DNA of 38,594 nt from Vasconcelosia minhoensis LEGE 07310 (GTDB taxonomy: Bacteria > Cyanobacteriota > Cyanobacteriia > Phormidesmidales > Phormidesmidaceae), in NCBI RefSeq assembly GCF_015207255.1, contig NZ_JADEXG010000053.1:1-38594 (forward strand), in the 5' to 3' direction. How positions within the stretch are numbered: position 1 is the first letter of the stretch; each line of letters starts with the position of its first letter. The notes under the pieces were generated by a model. That model worked only from the letters and a program-made list of their open reading frames with translations. It was not told where the DNA came from and searched no databases. Position numbers and translations under genes: made by a program. Positions 548 to 3,336 of the stretch are shown one piece after another.

Positions 548-719
548 TCCTAATAATTAAGCTTTAGCTAGCGGTGTTAGCTATTATATAGAAAATATGT
601 TTCCCTTCGAGAAAATCTTATTAATTTTAGACTTTCGCAAAAAGCTAACAATTCAAATGCAGCGGACAGTTGCGAGCCATTGCTGCTGAGTTTAAGGTTG
701 TCTTCTGCCGCTGATTTGA

Positions 720-916
720 GTCGTTAGACGGCTAAAACCCCCGGCTCTTGCTGAACCGGGACGATGTCGGAAACGTCTAGCTGAGCGCAGTATTCCAGGT
801 CGGCGAGCTGATGCTGCTTGAGCAGCCGCTGGCCGTGGGTGGCGTGGCGCATCAGCTCTAGCAGCTGGTTTTGCCATTGGAGAAAGAGGCTGACTGACGC
901 GATCGCGGCATCGTTC
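720..916 (-). pseudogene. Duplicate 3' end of comB-like gene
   Basis: This stretch aligns without gaps to 1769-1965, the end of the intact comB-like gene. I count 19 mismatches in 197 positions, about 90% identity. It reads as the last 64 codons of that gene with its own stop (TAA, complement at 724-726), but has no 5' part. Only four residues differ in the alignment (N/G, I/M, Q/R, A/S), so most substitutions are silent. Similarity stops abruptly just beyond the HIP1 octamer at 899-906. The fragment lies immediately downstream of xisI and is in the same orientation as the full gene, so the two copies form direct repeats around xisHI. Confidence 0.85.
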
Positions 917-957
917 ACCAATCAAAAGCCACTCAAACGCAGAAGCAGAACACCGTA

Positions 958-1296
958 TCATGCCACGGCAAAACCCGTATGCTGCCGTATTTTTGGATGA
1001 CGGAATCCTAAGACTATATCTTCTCTAAAAATGCCCGCAGCCATCAAATCAGTCGCCACGCCTTCCTCAGTATCATCATACTGAATCCAAACCTTATTCT
1101 CAATCAGACTGATATGAATCGGTGTCGCATGGAGATATCTATCACCGTCCCAACCCAAGTCTAAAATGAGATACTGCCCTCGTTCATCATCGAATACGAC
1201 CTGACAGGTGTAACCATCAGGAAGATCTGCGCGATAGTTCGCATGATCTTGAAGAACATTCTTGATAATGCTTTGGTAACTTAACTGGGTATCCAT
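958..1296 (-). CDS. xisI: XisI-family protein
   Basis: A 112-residue protein of the XisI family (PF08869), named for a factor required, with XisH, for excision of the fdxN element in Anabaena. Family hallmarks are the N-terminal helix (YQSIIKNVLQDHA), then VFDDERGQYLILDLGWDGDRYLHATPIHI and the C-terminal region GIFREDIVLGFRHPKIRQ. It overlaps the end of xisH by 16 nt, so the two genes are translationally coupled. No recombinase (XisF type) lies nearby, so an excision role here is unsupported. Such pairs occur as many stand-alone copies in cyanobacterial genomes, and a toxin-antitoxin-like or nuclease-control role is only a hypothesis. Confidence 0.9.
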   Translation of the reverse strand: MDTQLSYQSIIKNVLQDHANYRADLPDGYTCQVVFDDERGQYLILDLGWDGDRYLHATPIHISLIENKVWIQYDDTEEGVATDLMAAGIFREDIVLGFRHPKIRQHTGFAVA

Positions 1297-1700
1297 TGTA
1301 CAATTACCTCGCTTTCATCATCGAAGACGATTAATTTGATCACCTGATTCTTGAGGAGTACTTGTCCTAATTCTATAGTGAACACGCTGTTATAGGTTGG
1401 CTGAGATACGGCCAGATAAAGGCTTCGATCAGTTCCCATCTCGTTTAGAATTTGATGATACAAGACGTACTGACCCAATGCTTGTTCTAAATCTTTGACA
1501 TCAGACTGCCCTACAAAACTTTTTATCTCAACAATAATTTTTTGCAATCCCCTCTCGGCACTAATAAGGCGCTCTGCGCCTAGATCAGCTGACAAACGCT
1601 TTTTTCCAATCTTAAGCGGAAACGGGTCATGCGTAATTGTCCACCCATCTTTTTGAAGGGCACGCTTTACCGTGTTGTGGTATATATCTCTGGCTGGCAC
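1281..1700 (-). CDS. xisH: XisH-family PD-(D/E)XK nuclease-like protein
   Basis: 139 residues, full length for XisH (PF08814). It begins with the typical MPARDIYHNTVKRALQKDGW. It carries a PD-(D/E)XK-like core: Asp in SADLGAERLI followed by the IVEIKSF motif (E-x-K), then a Gln/Tyr helix (LEQALGQYVLYHQIL). This suggests a nuclease fold; activity in this family is not established from what I can see. It is the first gene of a two-gene unit with xisI, and the pair sits between two copies of the comB 3' end. The start is fixed by the conserved N-terminus. Confidence 0.9.
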   Translation of the reverse strand: MPARDIYHNTVKRALQKDGWTITHDPFPLKIGKKRLSADLGAERLISAERGLQKIIVEIKSFVGQSDVKDLEQALGQYVLYHQILNEMGTDRSLYLAVSQPTYNSVFTIELGQVLLKNQVIKLIVFDDESEVIVQWIPS

Positions 1701-1772
1701 AAAGAACTTAGAGTAATAGAGAGTAACATCCGTGCATAGCTGCTCTAGAACTATCGTCGCCGTTTTTTGTCG

Positions 1773-2504
1773 TTATACCGATAGAACCCCCGGCTCTCGC
1801 TGAACCGGCACCATGTCTGAAACGTCTAGCTGGGCGCAGTATTCCAAATCGGCGAGCTGATGCTGCTTGAGCAGCCGCTGGCCATGAGTGGCGTGGCGCA
1901 TCAGCTCTAGCAGCTGGCCCTGCCACTGGAGAAAGAGGCTAACTGACGCGATCGCGGCATCATTCCCCGCCAGCTCCTTAAAACTCAACCCGGTCTGGTC
2001 AATCAGGCTGTGGACAATCGCCCCGGCACAGACCGTATCTTCCAGCGAATAGCTGCCCTCCCAGCCGGAGCCGACTAGCCAAACCGTCTCGGGCTGCTTT
2101 GACAGCAGCGCCTTGACCGTCGCCTGCCGGGTGGTCAGGGCCGCCGTCATTACCAGCGGGGCCTGTTGAATTCGCTCCAGGCAGCGGGTGCCGTTGGTGG
2201 TGCTCATAAACAGCCGCCGTCCCTGAGTGCGATCGCGGCTGTGGTCCAGGGGCGAATTGCCCAAGTCAAACCCGTCTACGCGCTCACCGCCGCGTTCGCC
2301 CGCCCGAATTCGTCGGTCGGCGGGCCATTGTTCGCTCACCTGAATCAGCCGGTCGAGGTCGCTAAACACCTGCACCGCTTCCGCCCCGGCCTGGAAGGCA
2401 GCGGCAATGGTCGTGGTCGCCCGCAGCACGTCGATCGCGATCGCGCAGTCTGGAACCTGGTCAGCGGGTGCTTCCTCAGGCGTGTGATAGACGAACAGTT
2501 TCAC
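1773..2504 (-). CDS. comB: 2-phosphosulfolactate phosphatase family protein (ComB-like)
   Basis: 243 residues matching the ComB family (PF04029): N-terminus [19 protein letters not shown], then [17 protein letters not shown], the [17 protein letters not shown] segment, [13 protein letters not shown], and a [20 protein letters not shown] motif. In methanogens the enzyme removes phosphate from 2-phosphosulfolactate in coenzyme M synthesis. Cyanobacteria are not known to make coenzyme M, so the substrate here is probably different. The last 64 codons are repeated at 720-916. The gene may therefore be a chimera of native 5' sequence and an incoming 3' end, although the protein looks complete. Confidence 0.9.
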
Positions 2505-3098: not shown

Positions 3099-3146
3099 AC
3101 AAACTGAAGTTGAACGGACGGAATCTGGCTGCTAATGGCCAATCAA

Positions 3147-3229
3147 CGGAGAGGGTGGGATTCGAACCCACGGTACTTGCGTACACTCGATTTCAAGTCG
3201 AGCGCATTCGACCACTCTGCCACCTCTCC
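3147..3229 (-). tRNA. trnS-UGA: tRNA-Ser (anticodon UGA)
   Basis: On the minus strand the acceptor arm GGAGAGG pairs with CCTCTCC, with discriminator G. The anticodon arm is CTCGA-CTTGAAA-TCGAG, giving anticodon UGA. A long variable arm (GTACGCAAGTACC region) marks it as class II, and the T arm is GTGGG-TTCGAAT-CCCAC. All stems pair by eye. The 3' CCA is not encoded, as is common in cyanobacteria. Confidence 0.97.
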
Positions 3230-3336
3230 AACGGTCGGTCATGCCTCATCGGTCATGACGGTCAATAACGACACGGTCATTATTCTATGATAGCAAGCTG
3301 CCCGACGTGAGCAAAAGCTAGCGACGGCTAGGCAGC

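Follow-up and report, generated by a model that had tools for sequence, protein, structure and literature searches.

Contig NZ_JADEXG010000053.1 of the cyanobacterium Vasconcelosia minhoensis LEGE 07310 (38,594 nucleotides, analysed at full length and called the window below) carries the gene pair xisH and xisI (xisHI) between an intact comB gene and a second, orphaned copy of the comB 3′ end. The two comB ends appear to have diverged under purifying selection before one of them was orphaned, the end now attached to the gene is probably the foreign one, and direct repeats enclose xisHI at other cyanobacterial sites as well. As an explanation we lean, with limited confidence, towards a one-sided homologous import, in which comB would have acquired a foreign end together with xisHI, and a further join, this one non-homologous, would have orphaned the old end. 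XisH and XisI are fdxN element excision factors of Anabaena (PMC4874684). Although they are known from this one excision reaction, they stand alone in many cyanobacteria, where they have no settled role.

Organisation of the locus

On the minus strand of the window, the order is comB, xisH, xisI and the second comB 3′ end. A direct-repeat search of the window returned a single family of 211 nt (709-919 and 1758-1968), which is 89% identical, gapless and offset by 1049, with a chance expectation of E ~2e-65; this bears out the gapless direct comB repeat around xisHI that the initial annotation had described. The features of the locus are as follows.

1773..2504, minus strand: intact comB (2-phosphosulfolactate phosphatase family), an open reading frame (ORF) matching PF04029 (E 1.2e-80), with its final ~64 codons inside copy A
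1758..1968, minus strand: repeat copy A, at the 3′ end of the intact comB and derived in comparison with other cyanobacteria; it probably arrived with xisHI
1701..1757, minus strand: 57-bp leader from copy A to xisH; the final ~60 bp before xisH resemble, by eye, the leaders of many close relatives
1281..1700, minus strand: xisH, GTG start, PF08814, predicted PD-(D/E)XK-like fold with D39, E58 and K60 conserved
958..1296, minus strand: xisI, PF08869, overlapping xisH by 16 bp
920..957, minus strand: 38-bp spacer from the xisI stop to copy B
709..919, minus strand: repeat copy B, the orphaned comB 3′ end, which keeps an open frame of 65 aa (724-921); putatively the original end of the resident gene
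899..906, no strand assigned: HIP1 octamer in copy B, 13 bp inside the gene-internal edge, with its partner at 1948-1955 in copy A

Between the repeats, xisH and xisI are the only credible genes as judged from ORFs and Pfam matches, and neither source revealed a methyltransferase there. For the serine recombinase XisF, the interval between the repeats offers no ORF and no room, while the rest of the genome was not searched for xisF. The locus shares its two protein families with the fdxN system, but here the xisHI pair is alone, and the repeats enclose neither a recombinase nor a large excisable element.

Selection on the two comB ends

The comparison of comB covered 60 genomes (that of the window and 59 relatives, same-family genomes at best and no congener), and the best-scoring 29 of the 59 relatives' comB loci were used as outgroups. 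Over codons 181-243, copies A and B differ at 19 bases and at 4 residues, exactly as initially counted, and one further mismatch lies at the repeat edge in codon 180. The non-synonymous (dN) and synonymous (dS) divergence between the copies was 0.036 and 0.40 by NG86 (dN/dS ~0.09) and 0.046 and 0.26 by YN00 (dN/dS 0.18). When random mutation was simulated, four or fewer residue changes occurred in at most 5e-5 of 20000 runs under each of three transition biases. These data argue that copies A and B diverged under purifying selection, before the orphaning of copy B, and they uphold the earlier proposal that both were functional coding sequence at that time. An excess of non-synonymous change in the 720-916 copy had been named as the sign that would speak against this proposal, and the orphan copy B shows no such excess; it is not decaying and was apparently a functional gene end until a short time ago.

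The outgroups also bear on which end is the newcomer. At the 20 differing bases, the commoner state among the 29 relatives is that of copy B at 14 and that of copy A at 6. At residues 196, 231, 236 and 242, the residue of copy A was found in none of the 29 relatives, while that of copy B was found in 2, 22, 9 and 2 of them, respectively. Codon 180 is reversed, since the residue of the intact gene is common to all 29 relatives, although this codon possibly lies outside the homologous stretch. If the four apparent changes in copy B were neutral, the probability of zero residue changes among them would be 0.007. In a maximum-likelihood tree, A and B are sisters on a long stem, with a longer tip for A (0.069) than for B (0.041); this tree is rough, because B covers the last codons only. 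Taken together, the gene-attached end (copy A) is probably the foreign one, for which the evidence is good but not final, given the distance of the outgroups.

Among the 60 genomes, an intact comB together with a second comB C-terminal piece was found only in the genome of the window. Two further genomes gave two comB rows, namely G042, in which comB is split, and G041, which has a 32% match elsewhere; in G042 (G042:C16:137544-138267), comB seems to consist of two pieces that overlap. Neither xisH nor a second comB C-terminus was found within up to 1.5 kb on either side of comB in any of the 29 relative loci, which belong to distant relatives, and no comB was found in the flanks (up to 3 kb) of 52 loci detected with the window's XisH. 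Site-specific homing to comB was accordingly rejected, with 0/52 related cassettes beside comB and xisHI at 0/29 relative comB loci.

On the comB side, the neighbour in the window is a DUF2085 gene, as it is in 12 of the 29 relatives (within up to 1.5 kb). On the far side, the ORF at 152-547 and the DNA at 1-708 matched none of the 29 relative comB loci. A tRNA-Ser (tga) gene lies at 3146-3230 on the minus strand of the window, ~1.2 kb from the comB repeat and away from the insertion site.

Direct repeats around xisHI in other cyanobacteria

We counted a cassette as bracketed if a direct repeat of at least 60 bp lay within 300 bp of both of its ends. After removal of xisH genes without xisI or with less than 400 bp of flank on a side, 155 of 166 distinct xisH were kept; here, distinct means different in DNA, and the likely orthologous sites L305-L307 and L180/L107 were collapsed only in the count of 204 loci given below. 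A pooled set comprised these 155 and the 52 cassettes from the scan with the window's XisH (6/52 bracketed), and its count fell from 24 to 22 of 207 after two loci with repeats of neighbouring xisHI were set aside. As controls, we used random intervals in the same loci, single ORFs and genes of Uma2, which is likewise an abundant family of patchy occurrence and is described as having a restriction-endonuclease fold (PMC2674450).

At the DNA level, 18/155 distinct xisHI were bracketed compared with 11/480 random intervals (p 1e-5), and the contrast of this set with Uma2 gave p 0.005. In the pooled set, the corresponding figures were 22/207 for xisHI against 11/480 random intervals (p 1.5e-5), 8/320 ORFs (p 1.5e-4) and 1/79 Uma2 (p 0.007), where the sole Uma2 case is a tandem Uma2. 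With orthologous sites collapsed, 19/204 xisHI were bracketed (p 1e-4, 9e-4 and 0.018 against random intervals, ORFs and Uma2, respectively). A translated test gave 22/155 xisHI against 2/357 controls, with single ORFs at 7/320. Furthermore, 13 of 76 repeat pairs lay within 100 bp of both cassette ends, against 0.3 expected if evenly spread, several pairs per locus being possible. Of the 11 matches in the random-interval control, three fell in loci with bracketed xisHI (two in L071 and one in L141), and another came from L140, a locus with tandem xisHI. Across the 22 loci, repeat length ranges from 61 to 359 bp and identity from 73 to 96%, and the repeats vary by site. The enrichment over Uma2 hints that the cassette itself contributes, although a single control family is thin evidence and insertion ages are uncontrolled in this comparison.

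Some further repeats and copies were noted. Tandem xisHI pairs occur at L073 and L153, where the repeats of neighbouring copies are 84% and 68% alike, respectively. At L044, a 667-bp identical direct repeat lies ~830 bp out on both sides of xisH and runs to the ends of the stretch analysed. In the window's genome (G000), Uma2 genes are abundant, with 27 matches scored from 113 first-look candidates, and a second xisH is present (G000:C12:100229-100631; L033, L034) as two overlapping match pieces, as if frameshifted; no direct repeat across this second xisH was found in its 1.5-kb flanks.

Duplicated gene ends and empty sites

We sorted the 22 bracketed loci by reading their ORFs. Eleven fell into a gene-end class (~8 independent events), two were unclear and nine had a dispersed or non-coding appearance:

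comB 3′ end: the window
MFS transporter 3′ end: L099
3′ end of a protein with DUF559 and Eco57I matches: L106
rsmA-type 3′ end and GHMP-kinase 5′ end together: L177
methyltransferase 5′ end: L180, and L107 by likeness
ResIII-domain protein 5′ end: L111
DUF4915 protein 5′ end: three Microcystis loci, L306 and (by likeness) L305 and L307
5′ end of a small protein with a DUF2281 match below cut-off: L303
unclear: L071, L311
dispersed or non-coding appearance: L178, L141, L157, L182, L164, L125, L172, L304, L153

The kinase gene at L177 we take to be ispE-like. By our reading, ~8 independent events would each have duplicated a gene end, with one whole gene remaining.

The initial annotation had noted a HIP1 octamer next to the end of the unit in both comB copies. 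The octamers at 899 and 1948 are indeed there, 13 bp inside the edges, but the window contains 44 of them (one per 877 bp) and no rule emerged across loci. Over 12 curated loci, CGATCG lay within 15 bp of 5/48 repeat edges, with 1.5 expected, and HIP1 was rejected as the joining site; all five edges come from L177, where one repeat terminates on HIP1, and from L106 and L303, and each copy pair is counted twice. No sequence common to the repeat edges was found, CGATCG being the only motif tested.

Insertion is confirmed by empty congeners at three sites, namely L177, L099 and the DUF4915 site of Microcystis. At L177, rsmA directly adjoins the kinase gene, without an insert, in the congeners G128 and G431, and in the occupied site each functionless half carries a one-base deletion (by eye). 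At L099, the site is empty and contiguous in G205. Here, copy B and the downstream DNA match G205 (94%, 1335 columns) and G177 (89%, 188 columns), while the attached transporter end and xisHI match G154, G433 and G199, which have xisHI and no orphan copy in the stretch compared. L099 therefore joins two haplotypes, which is the same kind of joint as that proposed for comB.

Of 12 Microcystis genomes, 3 carry the insert at the DUF4915 site and are taken, from identical matches, as those of L305-L307; in five genomes (G357, G146, G439, G440 and G442) the copy is single and xisH is absent, and in the other four the site is partial, split or missing. The orphan left copy at this site is short of ~148 bp. 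In each of the occupied genomes G281 and G283, the two copies belong to different haplotypes: they differ by indels, and every one of these indels recurs elsewhere among the genomes. A second Microcystis xisHI site is whole in G357 (L365) and partial in four others (L373, L374, L366 and L367), and in L373 the xisHI match is interrupted by other DNA. At this second site, the 35 bp downstream of xisI are 88 to 91% like the upstream region of the DUF4915 gene, a likeness that may possibly reflect homology at one end.

Predicted fold and spread of the cassette

XisH matches were found in 102 of the 386 genomes of a phylum sample, some of which have ten or more. Proteins closely related to the window's XisH, at 77 to 90% identity, are present in Nostoc, Brasilonema, Mastigocoleus, Aliterella, Pseudanabaena, Microcystis, Calothrix and others. 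Outside the two genes, the common sequence extends by eye over ~60 bp upstream and ~10 bp downstream, and no terminal repeats or longer common terminal sequence of the cassette were seen by eye.

The only Pfam match of XisH is PF08814 (183.3 bits, cut-off 25). Its structural model (pLDDT 88) agrees with the solved XisH structures (Z 21.9 and 21.6), and solved XisI structures match the window's XisI. In Foldseek, the two solved XisH were the only hits at E 0.001 or better. VIA-align of the model returned AF1548 (9.5), AF2093 (8.4), Upx (8.2) and Card1 (8.2), and comparisons with many nucleases, including EndoMS, PaqCI, FokI, N.BspD6I, Hjc and TnsA, gave Z 5 to 8, where Z below 8 may mean a common arrangement only. 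In an alignment of 30 XisH rows, from which L315 was excluded for containing a stop, D39 and E58 are invariant and K60 is conserved in at least 90%. XisH is named as a known member of the PD-(D/E)XK superfamily in PMC1189080. From the model, XisH is predicted to have a nuclease-like PD-(D/E)XK fold with the catalytic D and E-x-K in place.

Carriage by phages was rejected: no relative was found in phage records or in IMG/VR, where the scan is sensitive to close relatives only, and no PHROG or PADLOC family was matched. Carriage on plasmids does occur, in 38 records, 13 of them predicted to be conjugative, all below 60% identity to the window's XisH. Among the papers listed by literature searches on xisH and xisI, for which most subscription papers were beyond reach, no title or abstract opening reports xisHI flanked by gene-end duplications.

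Discussion

The account that we favour starts from the anatomy of the locus, the selection on both copies before the orphaning, the closeness of copy B to the relatives and the recurrence at other xisHI sites, and from these we infer a donor, a sequence of events and a one-sided junction at comB. The cassette (57-bp leader, xisH, xisI and 38-bp tail) would have arrived attached to the comB 3′ end of a related, diverged strain. On one side, homologous recombination within comB would have supplied the gene with a functional 3′ end of foreign origin (copy A), followed by xisHI; on the other side, a join lacking long homology would have formed within the resident comB, before its stop, so that the resident 3′ end (copy B) now lies downstream as an orphan. 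The gene itself remained complete because its end is included in the duplicated stretch. The initial annotation had likewise proposed that xisHI and an allelic comB end were imported from a related strain. The derived copy A and the joint at L099 favour this import, while the copies at L177 look like one lineage, as duplication in place or import from a very close donor would produce, so a diverged allele would not have been imported at every site.

The product expected from one-sided import has a precedent. Homology-facilitated illegitimate recombination has been proposed for the replacement of type VI secretion system effector-immunity genes in Vibrio cholerae, which leaves orphan immunity genes (PMC5361080, PMC3240628). 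As in comB, one end would be homologous and one illegitimate, with the old gene end left behind. No cassette gene is required there, whereas here the scar is enriched around one gene family; by analogy, such recombination would give the same product without help from the cassette (PMC5361080).

Several observations weigh against our account. The outgroups are 57.8 to 74.0% identical to copy A over the compared stretch, the polarity rests on few sites, and the split of 14 to 6 sites is modest when taken alone. The donor and the empty comB allele are unseen, as the comparison set contains no congener. At L177, two states common to both copies are missing from each of the two empty congeners (by eye). 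At L099, the haplotype of the attached copy is also found in the absence of xisHI (G432 is the clear case; for G438 and G203 it was seen in alignments extending beyond the stop) and is therefore no marker of xisHI carriers; moreover, the 233-bp spacer between xisI and the orphan is unmatched in the xisHI-bearing relatives compared. In the census, the translated contrast with Uma2 is weak (22/155 against 4/79, p 0.046), and nine of the 22 bracketed loci look dispersed or non-coding by the reading of ORFs. The eight gene-end events alone do not stand out from the random intervals (8/204 against 11/480, p 0.31), an uneven comparison because the control matches were unsorted into gene ends. The presence of a whole gene is also partly geometric, since a repeat that exceeds the gene's overlap with the insertion site always leaves one complete copy.

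A possible but on the whole unlikely alternative is insertion in place with a long target duplication, whereby ~200 bp of the resident comB would have been copied, and the copies, identical at birth, would have diverged later. This mode of movement is reported for restriction-modification units as 'insertion with long target duplication', for which Nobusato et al. 2000 and Furuta et al. 2010 are cited (PMC1643837, PMC3154945, PMC3031569, PMC3874152). The anatomy is alike in that a small unit with a nuclease gene and no transposase lies between direct repeats on the order of 100 bp, which in the restriction-modification case are copied from the target; comB has both the flanking direct repeats and single-copy, insert-free relatives (29/29, distant). 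Unlike those units, xisHI has no methyltransferase, and the comB copies resemble two alleles, not a fresh duplication. The shared states and one-base deletions at L177 and the ~148 bp lost from the Microcystis orphan speak for such duplications elsewhere. At comB, duplication in place is disfavoured because the orphan should be the more changed copy and hold most of the unselected changes, and the opposite was observed: the orphan has fewer changes, its apparent ones are silent, and the intact copy is more derived.

Somewhat more doubtful is homing, in which XisH (with XisI) would cleave an allele that lacks the insert, close to copy B's inner edge, and repair would copy xisHI together with a donor gene end lacking the cut site. 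The cassette would then be a selfish nuclease gene replacing the gene end that it damages itself. The nucleases among the structural neighbours of the XisH model (Card1, EndoMS, PaqCI, Hjc, FokI, N.BspD6I and TnsA), the conserved D39, E58 and K60 and the superfamily assignment are consistent with this. The same anatomy is described for fungal mitochondrial mobile endonuclease ORFs that carry a foreign host-gene C-terminus, in Allomyces atp6 and in Glomus atp6, atp9, cox2 and nad3 (PMC3630166). According to that paper, the host gene runs into a diverged inserted end coding for nearly the same protein, followed by the nuclease ORF and then the native end, which is nearer to relatives and, for atp6 and cox2, unexpressed. 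In comB, too, the native orphan is nearer to the relatives than the in-phase end (14 against 6 sites, 4/4 residues), as measured with distant outgroups. The fungal ORFs are of the LAGLIDADG or GIY-YIG type, whereas XisH, with PF08814 as its sole Pfam match, belongs to neither, has a predicted PD-(D/E)XK-like fold and sits on a bacterial chromosome. Against homing stand the lack of a common repeat-edge sequence, with CGATCG confined to three of 12 loci, the variation of sites among loci and the absence of xisHI from comB in 29 relatives and of comB beside 52 related cassettes. The low Uma2 count (1/79) indicates that a nuclease fold alone is insufficient for the scar.

An assembly or strain-mixture artefact, with the comB regions of two strains misjoined, is improbable: the window is an entire contig of a 161-contig draft and copy B lies ~700 bp from the contig end, but three Microcystis genomes and G291, an assembly of 2 contigs, show this structure too. 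Very improbable is a site-specific integrative element that restores its target gene like integrases of phages or integrative and conjugative elements at tRNA genes, an analogy drawn initially, for although the gene end is duplicated and the gene intact, only xisH and xisI and no integrase lie between the repeats, the repeats differ by site without a constant core or attachment-site system, and no common terminal sequence was seen by eye beyond ~60 bp upstream and 10 bp downstream.

Overall, the recurrent insertion scar is a mobility signature for xisHI without a transposase, and it ties xisHI to the style of movement of restriction-modification units and homing ORFs. It is conceivable, though unlikely on present evidence, that xisHI are selfish nuclease cassettes that home into gene ends with a recoded replacement end, as a natural cut-and-rescue element. 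If true, this would explain the many copies per genome and the spread through cyanobacteria without a transposase. The scar also opens a direct test of the part that the nuclease-like fold of XisH may play in insertion and of whether the cassette brings a replacement gene end with it.
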